Assembly (NCBI GenBank): GCA_944393195.1
Contig: CALXZG010000013.1
Location: 1 to 35,650 of the forward strand
Origin: an uncultured Alphaproteobacteria bacterium
GTDB taxonomy: Bacteria > Pseudomonadota > Alphaproteobacteria > CAAHEQ01 > UBA3637
Length of the DNA stretch: 35,650 nucleotides
Reading direction: 5' to 3'
Shown in pieces: positions 26,634 through 33,679 of the stretch. The notes beneath the pieces were generated by a model. That model worked only from the letters and a program-made list of their open reading frames with translations. It made no database searches and was not told the DNA's origin. Position numbers and translations under genes: made by a program. The first letter of the stretch is position 1. The number at the start of each line of letters is the position of its first letter.

Positions 26634-26662
26634 TTGACAAACTTGTGCAATTGTGATATACT
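26634..26662 (+). promoter_or_regulatory. Consensus promoter of the lysozyme gene
   Basis: TTGACA (26634-26639), a 17-bp spacer and TATACT (26657-26662). This is the closest match to the sigma-70 consensus in the window, yet two terminator-like hairpins follow before the gene. Confidence 0.85.
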
Positions 26663-26673
26663 GTTCGTTAATT

Positions 26674-26735
26674 AGTCAGGATACCTGTATCCTGACTTTT
26701 TATATCCGCCGGGTATGCTGCCCGGCGTTTTTTTT
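26674..26735 (+). promoter_or_regulatory. Double-terminator leader of the lysozyme gene
   Basis: Hairpin 1 is AGTCAGGATA/TATCCTGACT (26674-26683 with 26688-26697, loop CCTG) followed by five Ts. Hairpin 2 is CGCCGGG/CCCGGCG (26707-26713 with 26721-26727) followed by eight Ts. Hairpin 1 starts 11 nt after the -10 box. Both have the form of intrinsic terminators and lie between promoter and Shine-Dalgarno, so read-through or antitermination would be needed for expression. The alternative reading is a ~65-nt small RNA. The leader at 29690-29752 has the same layout. Confidence 0.75.
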
Positions 26736-26760
26736 ATTCTTTTTTTTTAGGAGGTACATT

Positions 26761-27786
26761 ATGTCCAATTCACTATTTACAATTTTTCAGGTTTTAAAAA
26801 GGATATCACAAAATGGCTCCCCTCTTGATGCAATGATAACCGGAAATCAATCGGGTAATAGCCAAGGATCGTCTTCGAATACACGTAACAACAGATCGGA
26901 TAAATCAACCACGACAAAGGGAAAACATGATGTCAGCGGTGATTGTCAATACCGATTCCATGTTCGAAGCCATTTACGTGAAGGCCGTCGTGTTTCGTCA
27001 TACGAACGTCGATGCGGTCAGGACCATTCTCCGGAAGAGGCCGAACGCTTAAATCGAGAGGGGGCGCCTAACAAACAATCGGATACCAAAGAGCAATCAA
27101 AGCGTAAAGCCGAATCGGACAATGTCTTTCCCAAAAAGAATGATAATACGTCTTTCGAAGATGACAATATCTCTGGGGATGTCATGGCTCGTCGTTCAAT
27201 CGATTTTATTGCCCCCTATGAAGGGTTTATTCCCCATGCCTATTTTGATTCCAACGGAAATTTAACAACGGGATACGGTACATTGATTCCGAATAAAGAA
27301 GCCTATACGGGGATGAATTGGCAAAAACAGGGACACTATTTAACCAATACGCAAAAGGAGGTTAATTACGATAAAATAATGGACTTAAAGGATGAATATG
27401 GCTCTAACCGTATTGCAGATAGTCAAACAAAAATGAAAGAATTCGGTTTTATTCCTGAAACTGACTTGCGCATCATGGCAGAAGATCATATTCAAAACAA
27501 AACGATTCCAAGTCTTCAAAAAACATTGGCTCGGGATGGTGTTCAATTTAATCAACTGCCACCCTCCGTCCAAATGGCGCTGATAGATATAGAATATAAT
27601 ACGGGTAATTTTAAAAGTTTTTCCAAAATGCGAGAGGCAATTCAAAAAATGGATTTTGAAACCATGATAAAGGAAAGTCATCGTCGTTTTCCTGTTTCCG
27701 AAAAAAGAAATAACGCAGTTCGTCGGTTAATTTTGCAAGGTCAACAGGAAATGGCACACAAGTCCAAATATGGCACATGGGAATAA
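26761..27786 (+). CDS. GH24 (T4-type) lysozyme with an unnamed N-terminal Cys/His domain
   Basis: The chosen ATG (MSNSLFTIFQ) follows AGGAGG and gives 341 residues. Residues 54 to ~100 form a compact domain, GKHDVSGDCQ ... SSYERRCGQDHSPEEAE, also found in the transpeptidase-like protein at 29676. A low-complexity linker leads to a GH24 muramidase domain from about residue 148. Glu154, Asp163 and Thr169 have the exact E-x8-D-x5-T spacing of T4 lysozyme (YEGFIPHAYFD, NLTTGYGT). The enzyme should cut the MurNAc-GlcNAc bond. No signal peptide is seen, so it needs a special export route or lysis. It could be a phage-derived endolysin or an antibacterial effector. It ends 2 bp from the convergent lipoprotein gene. 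Confidence 0.85.
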   Translation: MSNSLFTIFQVLKRISQNGSPLDAMITGNQSGNSQGSSSNTRNNRSDKSTTTKGKHDVSGDCQYRFHVRSHLREGRRVSSYERRCGQDHSPEEAERLNREGAPNKQSDTKEQSKRKAESDNVFPKKNDNTSFEDDNISGDVMARRSIDFIAPYEGFIPHAYFDSNGNLTTGYGTLIPNKEAYTGMNWQKQGHYLTNTQKEVNYDKIMDLKDEYGSNRIADSQTKMKEFGFIPETDLRIMAEDHIQNKTIPSLQKTLARDGVQFNQLPPSVQMALIDIEYNTGNFKSFSKMREAIQKMDFETMIKESHRRFPVSEKRNNAVRRLILQGQQEMAHKSKYGTWE

Positions 27787-29091: not shown

Positions 29092-29676
29092 CTATTCCCC
29101 TTTTCCAACATATGCACTTGTTTTCTGAAGAAGGCTTAATTCTTCCCACTTTTGGTGTTCATCCTTTCTAGCTACATAATTTCCTTCCGGAATTGGGCCA
29201 TAATTTTTTAAGTCTTGATAATTAGGATGTTGAAATCCAGTTTTTCCTGATACAGCATTCCAGCTTTTTTCCAAATTCCCATTTTCATATAACGTGAGCT
29301 TTTTCCCATCAAATAATAAGTATTGATTTTCTTTTGTTGTAATGAGTTGATCCCATGATGATCGGTTTACATTTTCTTGGATACTCTCTTCTTGATTTTT
29401 TTCGGCCGCCTCTTTGGCGGTATGTTTTTGACCACAAAGGCGGTCATAGGCAGACACAGGATGCCCTTGGCGTGTATGAGCGGGCACATAAACAACTTGC
29501 TGACAATGACCAGAGGCATCATGTTTTCCTGTGCGTGTCACTTCCTCTGTGGGTTGAGATGGTTTTTGTGATTCATGTGATTGAATGTAAGTTTGTAATA
29601 AATTTGTTTGGGATGATGTTGTAGTTTCTGGTGTTCCAGATGATTGAGACTCTGTTGATGATGATTGATTTTTCAT
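29092..29676 (-). CDS. L,D-transpeptidase-like (DUF2778/Tlde1-like) protein with the shared Cys/His domain, cut by an amber stop
   Basis: The 194-residue product as written starts MKNQSSSTES after AGGAG. A Ser/Thr/Gln-rich N-terminus leads to the shared domain at residues 50 to ~95 (GKHDASGHCQ ... VSAYDRLCGQKHTAKEAAE). The start of a transpeptidase fold follows: KLTLYENGNLEKSWNAVSGK, then YGPIPEGNYVARK. The frame stops at TAG (codon 195) just before the catalytic half, which continues in frame downstream. DUF2778 proteins include Tlde1, a T6SS effector acting on peptidoglycan stem peptides. No signal peptide is seen. As written the protein lacks catalytic residues; it is a nonsense allele or depends on stop-codon read-through. 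Confidence 0.78.
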   Translation of the reverse strand: MKNQSSSTESQSSGTPETTTSSQTNLLQTYIQSHESQKPSQPTEEVTRTGKHDASGHCQQVVYVPAHTRQGHPVSAYDRLCGQKHTAKEAAEKNQEESIQENVNRSSWDQLITTKENQYLLFDGKKLTLYENGNLEKSWNAVSGKTGFQHPNYQDLKNYGPIPEGNYVARKDEHQKWEELSLLQKTSAYVGKGE

Positions 29677-29828: not shown

Positions 29829-29879
29829 GGTGCACTATTCATTTGCAAAAATAGTGTTGGTTATCGTCAAAAATGCACC
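29829..29879. repeat. Nested inverted repeats upstream of the small peptide gene
   Basis: GGTGCA (29829-29834) can pair with TGCACC (29874-29879). CACTATT (29833-29839) can pair with AATAGTG (29850-29856). The two pairings share bases and are partly exclusive. They lie between the transpeptidase promoter and the small-peptide promoter and may be an operator or part of an RNA. Confidence 0.5.
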
Positions 29880-29894
29880 TTTTCAAAATATAAG

Positions 29895-29924
29895 TTGATA
29901 AATCTGAAAATAAGAGCATATATG
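29895..29924 (+). promoter_or_regulatory. Possible promoter of the small peptide gene
   Basis: TTGATA (29895-29900), an 18-bp spacer and TATATG (29919-29924), about 28 bp before the ATG at 29953. Confidence 0.45.
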
Positions 29925-29952
29925 GTGATGCCCTCAATTGAAAGGACAGCAC

Positions 29953-30045
29953 ATGGAAAAGCAACTTAAACTCTTGGCCCAAATCATCCTGCCAATGCTC
30001 TTAACCGTATTGAAAAATAAGAAAATCAAAAAACGCCGATCTTAA
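29953..30045 (+). CDS. 30-residue hydrophobic/basic peptide (type I toxin-like or holin-like)
   Basis: AAAGGA lies 8 nt before the ATG. The frame encodes MEKQLKLLAQIILPMLLTVL followed by the basic tail KNKKIKKRRS and TAA. One membrane-spanning or amphipathic helix plus a cationic end is the layout of type I toxins and of small membrane-active peptides. A promoter-like element and nested dyads lie upstream. It sits between the transpeptidase-like gene and the DUF433/PIN-like pair. With so short a gene, chance cannot be excluded; the ribosome-binding site and composition are the main support. Confidence 0.5.
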   Translation: MEKQLKLLAQIILPMLLTVLKNKKIKKRRS

Positions 30046-31215: not shown

Positions 31216-31296
31216 GAAAAAATAAAAATCCTTTCTATTTCACTGGACTCTTCTTTTGTTTCAAGCATTCATTGTGTTGCAACGAAAGGAAAACTG

Positions 31297-31545
31297 ATGA
31301 AAATGCGCAAGTATGAAGATATCACCCCAAGCAACCAGACAAACTTTACAATGCTTTATTACCACGCCGGCCGGATTTTGACACATATTGAAACCCATCT
31401 GAAGCAGGCTTACGGTATTCCTCTTCCCATAAAACAGGCGCGAAATCTGACCCGCATGCAGCACAAATTGCAACAAATGGTTGCGCGGTACAAGCAAGTA
31501 AAATCGGACCTGGACAAGGAATATCAACTCAAAAAAGCAAAATAG
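31297..31545 (+). CDS. Hypothetical 82-residue basic, helix-rich protein
   Basis: AAAGGAAA precedes the ATG by 4-5 nt. The product (MKMRKYEDITPSNQTNF and on) is mostly helical, with a positively charged second half (ARNLTRMQHKLQQMVARYKQ, VKSDLDKEYQLKKAK). No family recognised. It stops 3 bp before the -35 box of the structured RNA promoter. RNA binding is conceivable from its charge and position, but that is speculation. A long open frame on the opposite strand here is a shadow. Confidence 0.6.
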   Translation: MKMRKYEDITPSNQTNFTMLYYHAGRILTHIETHLKQAYGIPLPIKQARNLTRMQHKLQQMVARYKQVKSDLDKEYQLKKAK

Positions 31546-31548
31546 GGC

Positions 31549-31578
31549 TTGTTTTTTTGAACGTTCTTCGTATATAAT
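31549..31578 (+). promoter_or_regulatory. Promoter of the structured RNA
   Basis: TTGTTT (31549-31554), an 18-bp spacer and TATAAT (31573-31578), a perfect -10 box. Transcription should start near 31585, where the first hairpin begins. Confidence 0.65.
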
Positions 31579-31584
31579 CAGTTC

Positions 31585-31800
31585 TGTTAGGACAGCCCAA
31601 GTTCTAACAAGGGAGTACAAACCCTGATTCTCGTGGGCAAGGGACTTTTGTATTATTGAAAGTTTCTTTGTTAGTGGGCATCTCACCGTTTGGTGGGTGC
31701 CGGCGATATAAGGCATGCTCGAATAAACCGGGCTACTTTTCACGAGATTCGTAGTTTGTAACACCCACCGCCTTCTGGCGGTGTTTTGTTTGGGCTGACA
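31585..31800 (+). ncRNA. Structured RNA of unrecognised class, upstream of the SLOG-like gene
   Basis: A 9-bp hairpin (31585-31593 with 31601-31609, one G-U) starts at the predicted transcription start. Its 7-nt loop AGCCCAA is fully complementary to TTGGGCT at 31790-31796. Long-range helices are TACAAAC/GTTTGTA (31616-31622 with 31754-31760) and TCTCGTG/CACGAGA (31629-31635 with 31741-31747), enclosing hairpins 31639-31668 and 31677-31701. A terminator-like stem, CACCGCC/GGCGGTG (31766-31772 with 31777-31783), is followed by TTTTGTTT. GGTGGGTG (31692-31699) can instead pair with CACCCACC (31762-31769), breaking the terminator stem. I do not recognise it as tmRNA, RNase P, SRP or a known riboswitch; a divergent 6S RNA is not excluded. 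Confidence 0.65.
31766..31790 (+). terminator. Terminator-like hairpin at the 3' end of the structured RNA
   Basis: CACCGCC/GGCGGTG with a TTCT loop, followed by TTTTGTTT, 21 bp before the next gene. It could end the RNA or act as an attenuator of the SLOG-like gene. Confidence 0.65.
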
Positions 31801-31810
31801 GGTATTCAGT

Positions 31811-32260
31811 TTGAGTATTTGCGCTTTTTTCGGCCACCGCGATACCCCTATGTCCAGCAACATAGAGCGACATTTAGAGGAAGTTATCAGAGATTTAATA
31901 GCCCAAGGGGTAGATGAATTTTGGCTGTGCGAACAAGGCACATTTGACTGTATGGCGCGCCTTACCTTGAAAGAATTAAAAAAGGAGTTTAGAGGGATTT
32001 CCCTGTGTTTGCTTCAGGCGTATCATCCAAGTGATGCCAAAATGGAGTGGGTTGAGGCGCAAGATTATGACCTGATATACCCCGATGAAGTGGCCAACGC
32101 CCCACCGCAAGTTGCCATTTTACGGAGAAACGACTACATCACCAAGAATGCGGATTACATTGTTTGCTATATCACTCACAATTCCGGTGGTGCTTATAAG
32201 GCTGTCGAAAAAGCCCGAAAACACAAAAAGAAAATCATCAACCTGGCCGAGTATATTTAG
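31811..32260 (+). CDS. SLOG-family (DUF1273-like) Rossmannoid protein
   Basis: The 149-residue product probably starts at TTG 31811, since an in-frame stop lies just upstream and no better start is visible; its ribosome-binding site is weak. The N-terminus SICAFFGHRDT and the later ITHNSGGAYKAVEKARKH match the two signature regions of DUF1273/SLOG proteins, which bind nucleotide-like ligands. SLOG domains occur in DprA-like proteins, in ligand sensors of defence systems and in stress proteins. It directly follows the structured RNA, so its expression may depend on that element. Its exact role is unknown. Confidence 0.75.
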   Translation: MSICAFFGHRDTPMSSNIERHLEEVIRDLIAQGVDEFWLCEQGTFDCMARLTLKELKKEFRGISLCLLQAYHPSDAKMEWVEAQDYDLIYPDEVANAPPQVAILRRNDYITKNADYIVCYITHNSGGAYKAVEKARKHKKKIINLAEYI

Positions 32261-32270
32261 CCCCAAAGGA

Positions 32271-32299
32271 TTGACTTTTATGTGCGGTTTGGTTAGGAT
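32271..32299 (+). promoter_or_regulatory. Promoter of the NTPase-ASCH gene
   Basis: TTGACT (32271-32276), a 17-bp spacer and TAGGAT (32294-32299), ending 23 bp before the ATG. Confidence 0.65.
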
Positions 32300-32322
32300 G
32301 AAAGCAATCACAAGGAGTTTTA

Positions 32323-33213
32323 ATGTTAATACTGAATATTAATGGACCAATCAATTCAGGAAAGACAACAGTTTCCAAGATTTTGGTAAATCTGTTGCCC
32401 AATGCCACTTTTATTGAAGTGGATGAGTTGATGAGTGACGAAGAGGAAGCAAAATTGGGACTTTCTATACAGGATGGTTGGGCAGAACGTCAAAAACGCC
32501 TAAATGAAACACTCTTAGCATTGAAACAATCTCGTCAATACGAAACGGTTATATTTGCCTATCCCATCAGTGAAAATAGTTATAAAACATGGTCCTCTAT
32601 GGCGGATGAAAACACTCGTTTTATAAATATCACCCTTGCCCCCAATTTGGAAGAATGTTTAAAGAATCGTGGCGAACGGGAACTGGATGATTGGGAACGA
32701 AACAGAATCAAAGAGATGTATGAGGAAGGATATCAAAATCGTCCATACTCTGACTTTATCATCAACAATGACAATCAAACACCCAAAGAAACTGATGAGA
32801 TTATTAAAGGATTTATTGAACATGCTCTCTCTTCAAAACAACAGTGGTTGCATTTAGTGGGAAGACGTTGGTCAGCTTTGTTAAATGGCGAAAAGACTTC
32901 TACATTTCGTTTGAATGAAGGATTTGTTCATAAGGGATTTTTGGTTTATAAAGACTGTCCGAAAGAACAATGGGCAGAGGTGGTTTATGTGACTCATGTG
33001 TATTATGTCCCTTTACGTCAAGCATTAGAAATAGATGGTTTCGATGAGCATACACCAGATATGGAAACGGCCTTAAAACAAATGCGTGTTCATTATCCAG
33101 ATATTACTTTGGATACGCCCATTTTATTTGCTCAGCATTTAGGAGTTCCTGAAACAAAAAAACTCTATCCCAATCAAGTAGAGGAGATTTTAGATGCAAT
33201 TAAAAATTCGTAA
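32323..33213 (+). CDS. P-loop kinase-like NTPase fused to an ASCH domain
   Basis: The 296-residue product starts MLILNINGPINSGKTTVSKI, a Walker A motif in a small kinase fold similar to chloramphenicol phosphotransferase or shikimate-kinase-like enzymes. This domain runs to about residue 170. The second half (WLHLVGRRWSALLNGEKTST, then FRLNEGFVHKGF) reads as an ASCH domain, a PUA-like fold thought to bind RNA or modified nucleosides. AAGGAG precedes the ATG. The stop overlaps the GNAT gene by 20 bp. Kinase plus ASCH suggests a nucleoside or RNA-related substrate, but that is inference. The fusion boundary is clean, with no stop or frame change. Confidence 0.8.
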   Translation: MLILNINGPINSGKTTVSKILVNLLPNATFIEVDELMSDEEEAKLGLSIQDGWAERQKRLNETLLALKQSRQYETVIFAYPISENSYKTWSSMADENTRFINITLAPNLEECLKNRGERELDDWERNRIKEMYEEGYQNRPYSDFIINNDNQTPKETDEIIKGFIEHALSSKQQWLHLVGRRWSALLNGEKTSTFRLNEGFVHKGFLVYKDCPKEQWAEVVYVTHVYYVPLRQALEIDGFDEHTPDMETALKQMRVHYPDITLDTPILFAQHLGVPETKKLYPNQVEEILDAIKNS

Positions 33214-33679
33214 GGCTATCCCAAACGATGCCAGAGATATAAAATCCGCCCACTATCATGCTTACCAAGCCTGTTATCGAGGATATTTACCTGATGATTT
33301 TCTGGACAATATGCCTTTTGATGAAGCGGTGATAGAACGAACAGCTAATCGTATTAAAGAAGTTGAATATTATGTTGCCGAAACAGAAAATCACGTTGTT
33401 GGATTTTTAACTCTTGAATATCCGGAAGAAAGAACTGTTGAAATTCAAATGCTTTATGTTCATCCTGACTTTCAAAAACAAGGTGTCGGAAGCGCTTTAA
33501 TGAAAGAGATTTGCCGATTAAAAAAAGAAGACGGCTATAATAAGTTAATTGTGTGGACAATCAAGGATGGATCTTCCATTGGTTTTTATCAAAAACAAGG
33601 GATGATAAAAACAAACGCTCCGAGTAAAAACTTTTGGAAACTTGATGTTCCACTCATCCGTTTTGAAAAAGAGTTATAG
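33194..33679 (+). CDS. GNAT-family N-acetyltransferase
   Basis: The 161-residue product begins MQLKIRKAIPNDARDIKSAH after GAGGAG, which lies inside the previous gene. The acetyl-CoA-binding motif A is VHPDFQKQGVGSALMKEI (Q-x-x-G-x-G/A pattern), and the C-terminal GFYQKQGM matches motif B. The substrate cannot be told; GNAT enzymes acetylate small amines, antibiotics or protein N-termini. Coupled translation with the NTPase-ASCH gene suggests a shared transcript. Confidence 0.88.
   Translation: MQLKIRKAIPNDARDIKSAHYHAYQACYRGYLPDDFLDNMPFDEAVIERTANRIKEVEYYVAETENHVVGFLTLEYPEERTVEIQMLYVHPDFQKQGVGSALMKEICRLKKEDGYNKLIVWTIKDGSSIGFYQKQGMIKTNAPSKNFWKLDVPLIRFEKEL

Follow-up and report, generated by a model that had tools for sequence, protein, structure and literature searches.

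The RNA encoded immediately upstream of a SLOG-like gene in the window, i.e., the whole 35,650-nucleotide stretch of alphaproteobacterial DNA analysed here, is by comparative sequence analysis a covarying, switch-capable leader RNA of high copy number that belongs to the sRNA-Xcc1 family in the broad sense. The alphaproteobacterial RNA is a large, mostly unrecorded branch of that family. We consider it probable, at roughly 60%, that the family to which the window RNA belongs is a cis-encoded attenuator leader of the sRNA-Xcc1/C4 type.

Layout of the RNA in the window

The RNA is about 200 nt long (31586-31791, forward strand). Its 5′ end lies about 8 nt past a TATAAT box, and its 3′ end is a GC-rich hairpin followed by TTTTGTTT. 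The predicted minimum free energy is −83.7 kcal/mol, as compared to −60 ± 4.7 kcal/mol in dinucleotide shuffles (z = −5.03; 0/200 shuffles). The elements of the region, all on the forward strand, are as follows.

31549-31578 (+), promoter-like sequence: −35 TTGTTT at 31549-31554, spacer of 18 nt, −10 TATAAT at 31573-31578
31586-31608 (+), P1 hairpin: strands 31586-31593 and 31601-31608, loop AGCCCAA at 31594-31600
31611-31624 (+), H2 hairpin GGG-AGTACAAA-CCC, the loop of which is strand b1
31626-31635 (+), strand a1 (5′ strand of P2b), partner a′ at 31741-31750
31634-31638 (+), TGGGC, partner of the P1 loop (PK1)
31639-31675 (+), P3 region, variable, differing in length and sequence among copies
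31677-31701 (+), P4 hairpin (strands a-b), the terminator-permitting state; 92.4% paired
31691-31699 (+), strand b of the antiterminator/core helix b-c, partner 31762-31769
31700-31731 (+), P5 arm (CCGGC/ACCGG) with the conserved internal loop AATAAGG..AATA; the same arm occurs in RF02221
31733-31754 (+), P6 arm (CTAC/GTAG), with strand a′ within its loop
31755-31760 (+), strand b′ (TTTGTA), partner b1 at 31616-31621
31762-31769 (+), strand c (CACCCACC), common to antiterminator and terminator
31766-31791 (+), intrinsic terminator: stem CACCGCC/GGCGGTG at 31766-31783 and a U-rich tail; 96% paired
31790-31796 (+), TTGGGCT, complement of the P1 loop, directly ahead of an SD-like AGG
31811-32260 (+), SLOG-like gene (YpsA-like, TTG start), downstream of the RNA

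The core thus runs from the closing helix b-c through P5 and P6, with a′ in the loop of the latter, to b′; a1 and b1 lie upstream on the same strand, and the intrinsic terminator follows, strand c being common to both. A base-by-base coordinate check found the sequence features named in the initial annotation at the positions given there. The TATAAT sequence taken there for a promoter does lie ahead of the RNA, and the P1 hairpin is present, with a stem of 8 bp in the window rather than the 9 bp claimed. In 63 of 104 copies the RNA is preceded, usually at a distance of 11-14 nt, by a −10-like hexamer with a match of at least 5/6; the shuffled control gives 29%. The SLOG-like protein scores 23.3 bits with Pfam PF06908, below the cut-off of 27.7. 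No tRNA or tmRNA was found within the window.

Covariation and the proposed terminator switch

An alignment of 106 copies was scored over 47 base pairs in nine helices. Paired cells make up 94.9% of the total, versus 66.1% in shuffles and about 40% when the strands are slid, and 46 of the 47 pairs change on both sides. Because P1, P2, P4, P5 and the terminator had guided the alignment, it is the helices absent from every model, namely b-c, P6 and H2, that provide the fair tests. The antiterminator helix b-c is 96.4% paired, with 8/9 pairs changing on both sides; P6 is 90.1% paired (3/3 scored pairs), and H2 is 93.1% paired (3/3). Compensatory variation in P6 goes from CUAY/RUAG to CCGU/ACGG. 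The remaining helices behave in the same way: P1 is 95.4% paired with 7/7 outer pairs changing on both sides, a1-a′ 97.5% (9/9), b1-b′ 98.5% (6/6), and P5 98.3% (5/5). Even near-identical copies reveal compensatory changes, such as GTACAAAC/GTTTGTAAC to TTGTTAAC/GTTAACAA and CTCGTG/CACGAG to CTTATG/CATAAG. The covariation test that the initial annotation had proposed for homologous regions therefore turned out in favour of the helices; a chance palindrome is ruled out by the covariation together with the sliding controls.

The same annotation had suggested a choice between terminator and antiterminator. Two partners are open to the strand GGTGGGTG (31692-31699): the other side of its hairpin (31677-31701), or CACCCACC, part of which lies in the terminator stem. 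Both alternative helices covary. Strand b thus covaries with both P4 and c, and strand c with both b and the terminator, which amounts to the switch that had been proposed. At least four U residues occur in the 8 nt after the terminator hairpin in 99 of 104 copies. The terminator state is favoured by a median of 6 kcal/mol, calculated for the 3′ half alone with pseudoknots left uncounted.

Two pairings had been suggested for the P1 loop. That of its core with TGGGC holds well in the SLOG-type copies (Fisher p = 6e-6 in 17 copies), with a compensatory change from GCCC:GGGC to GTCC:GGAC. The complementarity of the loop to the 3′ end is exact in the window and in near-identical copies; among the 17 SLOG-type copies it is marginal, with a Fisher p of 0.058, and in the other copies it is absent (p about 1). 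It is the least supported element of the initial description.

Distribution and downstream genes

Four further genomes of this bacterial family, from three other genera, contain a near-identical RNA. Homologs of the SLOG-like gene were found in 15 of 43 genomes of the family, and the diverged ones among them are nearly always preceded by a diverged form of the RNA; no RNA was found upstream of three homologs (L070, L072 and L075). In two loci of one genome (L056 and L067 of G026) an inserted repeat beginning GTAATCCGTCATTGCGAGG separates the RNA from the start codon of the SLOG gene, and stretches similar to this repeat stand at the start of pilin-like genes in that genome.

A covariance model trained on 20 SLOG-type copies only (R1) detects the RNA in 39 of the 43 family genomes, with up to 37 copies per genome. 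It matches copies of the other type at E-values of 1e-20 and below, E-values of such home-made models being rough. The fact that a model trained without the other type matches it strongly is independent evidence that the two types form one family. A second model (R2), run on 385 genomes sampled evenly across the class with 6 candidates per genome being scored, places the RNA in at least 40 of them, which represent about 27 families. When 398 genomes of the phylum were sampled, the matches of this second model fell only within the same class. Named records that carry the RNA are uncultured Alphaproteobacteria, mostly from gut and rumen, and our literature searches found no published description of the alphaproteobacterial RNA. 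In one genome (G022, L114 2897-4172) three tandem units of the RNA and a small lipoprotein gene follow one another, resembling the sRNA-Xcc1 clusters of Xylella.

An open reading frame lies downstream of 119 of 127 copies. In 110 of the 127 a start codon on the same strand is located 10-45 nt past the RNA (median 26). The initial annotation had proposed a leader or attenuator of the SLOG-like gene, and this is supported by the presence of the RNA upstream of the gene in most relatives, by the U-run of the terminator and by the covarying helices. Specificity for that gene did not hold up: other copies head pilin-like, lipoprotein, outer-membrane and further genes. Pfam names among the downstream genes include outer-membrane barrels, opacity porins, surface antigens, glycosyltransferases, pilins, HTH and zinc-ribbon proteins. 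By a crude classifier (lipobox, signal peptide, prepilin), 68 of 99 RNA-led genes look exported, the SLOG set being left out since it had been sampled by protein; for neighbouring genes, the RNA-led ones included, the same classifier gives 162 of 482. A tie of the RNA to the upstream 82-aa gene (31297-31545) was considered and rejected, as the distant homologs of that gene have no RNA after them.

Relation to known RNA families

The Infernal/Rfam check called for in the initial annotation gave no family match for the window copy at Rfam thresholds, and RF02221 gave no hit to it at E ≤ 10 (gathering score 53 bits). 6S RNA (RF00013), which had been named as a candidate, matched neither in the region nor in the whole genome. 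The statement that no known class fits is thus true of the window copy at these thresholds, and it fails for the core, which is that of RF02221, sRNA-Xcc1. Among the relatives joined to the window copy through R1 and R2, one copy of the other type (L211) scores 56.2 bits with RF02221, above gathering; further such copies score 29-41 bits, below it, and a copy elsewhere in the window's own genome (C9) scores 32.9 bits (E = 3e-4). The matches fall exactly on the core of the other-type copies. Across the 106 copies, helix b-c, P5, P6 and b′ covary, and they can be aligned with the structure of RF02221.

The RNA shares with RF02221, known from Xanthomonas, Xylella and integron cassettes, the closing helix, the arm with an A-rich internal loop, the CCGU..ACGG arm and a UUUUCUA-type strand. 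It also shares the position upstream of a gene, as with symE in Xanthomonas cassettes; an sRNA-Xcc1 upstream of symE in integron cassettes has been described (PMC12444791), as has a cluster of five copies in Xylella (PMC12189769). However, RF02221 models an 87-nt core only, whereas the copies studied here add about 100 nt upstream (P1, b1, a1, P3 and P4); the window copy stays below any threshold, and the SLOG-type copies lack a2 and b2, the ribosome-binding-site complements described below. Xanthomonas sRNA-Xcc1 was mapped as an 88-nt RNA and treated as an sRNA (PMC2996969), a length that fits the 87-nt core model starting at strand b. Two side observations concern neighbours of sRNA-Xcc1 copies: a c4-2 (RF02944) match of 34.8 bits, below gathering, lies about 1.3 kb from such a copy in the same genome (L337 2890-2958), and two matches to TwoAYGGAY RNA, just over gathering, lie near another (L343 2372-2494 and 2791-2857).

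Probable C4-like antisense logic

A wider set of 29 RF02221 copies was collected from outside the family of the window, most of them from outside the class (L344 lies within it) and three in phages. These copies carry the same upstream half. In them, strands a′ and b′ have two complements each, one farther upstream (a1 and b1) and one at the ribosome-binding site of the adjacent gene (a2 and b2). The Fisher p-values are 6e-12 for a′ with its upstream strand, 9e-14 for a′ with the ribosome-binding site, 1e-27 for b′ with its upstream strand and 3e-10 for b′ with the ribosome-binding site, all of them, like the other Fisher values given here, optimistic as loci may share ancestry. The pairing letters of a′ and b′ vary by locus. 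The gene ant follows the RNA directly in the phages Aaphi23 and Rac-SA53; in the latter, CTTGTA and TTTCGAA of the core face TACAAG and TTCGAAA immediately before the ATG of ant. The phage copies surfaced only with RF02221-type queries, while a Blast search of phage and plasmid sequences with the window copy as query and a strict DNA pattern run on viral contigs gave no match.

Within the Alphaproteobacteria, b′ matches the ribosome-binding site in 17 of 83 other-type copies at p < 0.05 (Fisher 1e-5); the matching letters are of several types and in most cases reach the start codon. No a2 was found in these copies (a′/P2b′ versus ribosome-binding site, p about 1), and neither a2 nor b2 was found in the SLOG-type copies (b′ versus ribosome-binding site, Fisher 0.70). 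The SLOG-type copy keeps a1, b1 and the terminator with no clear a2 or b2. Since a1-a′ is strongly conserved without a2, the fold must matter in cis beyond the needs of a simple antisense RNA.

C4 controls ant in phages P1 and P7 (PMC5320573, PMC12197685). In C4, b′ acts over the ribosome-binding site, a′ confers specificity, and RNase P cuts the RNA out of a larger transcript (PMC5320573). The likeness to C4 (P1/P7; RF01695), c4-2 (RF02944) and the c4-a1b1 motif lies in the three-stem core and the a′ and b′ loops, and the phage copies reported here also precede ant. In contrast, the alphaproteobacterial copies have a terminator switch in addition and are followed by non-phage genes. RF01695 itself gave no match in the window (E ≤ 10) or in the relatives scanned (E ≤ 5 or E ≤ 1). 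The C4 label used here is a statement on the working mode, not on membership of RF01695.

Proposed mechanism and alternatives

The anatomy described above suggests attenuation at the terminator, combined with C4-like translational silencing where a2 and b2 exist. With the b-c core folded, the terminator would be blocked and the gene read; with P4 (a-b) formed, transcription would stop and only a short RNA would result. Strands a′ and b′ could also cover the ribosome-binding site of their own gene, and the RNA could thereby repress that gene in cis, in relatives outside the class and, as far as b′ is concerned, in some of the alphaproteobacterial copies. If it were released by RNase P in the way known from C4, it might perhaps act on sister copies as well, in trans. 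The data on the SLOG copy of the window support the transcriptional half of the mechanism only.

A metabolite- or ion-sensing riboswitch is a possible, though doubtful, alternative. Here, the pseudoknotted core would be an aptamer, and the ligand would fix either b-c (gene on) or P4 (gene off). The leader has the mutually exclusive terminator and antiterminator helices of a riboswitch, both of them conserved, and it recurs in many copies ahead of unrelated genes. Two expression platforms, the terminator and the ribosome-binding site, the strongly conserved unpaired AATAAGG..AATA in P5, and the retention of a1-a′ even without a2 would also suit such a sensor. However, in the relatives the switching strands vary and match the ribosome-binding site of the gene that they precede, as an antisense RNA does, and the downstream genes have no metabolic theme. 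The c-di-GMP-I (GEMM) riboswitches occur in many copies per genome ahead of surface-structure genes and use terminator platforms, in all of which they resemble the RNA described here; the RNA differs from them in having no Rfam match and in occurring in genomes without GGDEF domains. c-di-GMP, the initial candidate given the many surface genes, was rejected as a general ligand, since five genomes (G110, G229, G399, G368 and G028) hold at least four copies each with no GGDEF match. These five genomes, 98-100% complete, are unlike most of their group in that no GGDEF domain was found in them.

If the RNA were a small RNA acting in trans, in line with the description of sRNA-Xcc1, its position upstream of genes would be incidental; we regard this as improbable. 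The title of Chen et al. 2011 reportedly presents sRNA-Xcc1 as trans-acting. The mapping of the 88-nt RNA in Xanthomonas (PMC2996969) and the terminator after the RNA fit this idea too. Such incidental placement is hard to reconcile with the 110 of 127 copies that end 10-45 nt before a same-strand start codon, and in the relatives a2 and b2 sit at the ribosome-binding site of the adjacent gene itself. An RNA-binding protein, or RNA polymerase and antitermination factors, could instead read the attenuator. This would involve the same terminator/antiterminator anatomy and could account for the conserved unpaired bases of P5, but no linked protein gene is common to all copies, and this reading is highly improbable.

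Genomic setting and implications

The RNA of the window lies within a block (31236-33299, with a left edge exactly at 31236) that comprises the 82-aa gene, the RNA, the SLOG gene and, in some genomes, further genes. Four other genomes share the block at 91-97% but have different DNA on its left side, and on this pattern it is apparently a mobile unit. Compared with one of these genomes (G006), the 241-bp RNA stretch is 100% identical and the whole block 94.6%. A stretch of about 200 bp to the left of the block (29844-30041) is found again close to it in each of these four genomes. A TGKHDxSGxCQ-type motif is common to two genes of the window, 26653-27786 and 29092-29676, which encode a lysozyme-like and a 194-aa protein.

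The C4-type attenuator reading links a high-copy, unannotated RNA of gut Alphaproteobacteria, the "trans-acting" sRNA-Xcc1 and the C4 logic of phages, which are separate in the literature and databases searched. If it is correct, RF02221 would have to be rebuilt as a leader family of about 200 nt with two expression platforms, and target predictions for sRNA-Xcc1 and sXF would need re-reading, because the first target would be the adjacent gene. The surface-gene regulon of uncultured gut bacteria would also become testable in E. coli, owing to the phage copies there. A further, rather speculative and on balance unlikely, idea is that a phage-type self-silencing RNA was adopted as a genome-wide control layer in gut Alphaproteobacteria with reduced genomes, its copies silencing each other or newcomers in trans. 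In this view the layer would consist of the up to 37 copies per genome of 1.1 Mb, mostly before surface genes, each with its own terminator switch and many of them with b′ and b2 in common. The arrangement would be akin to phage immunity for accessory genes.
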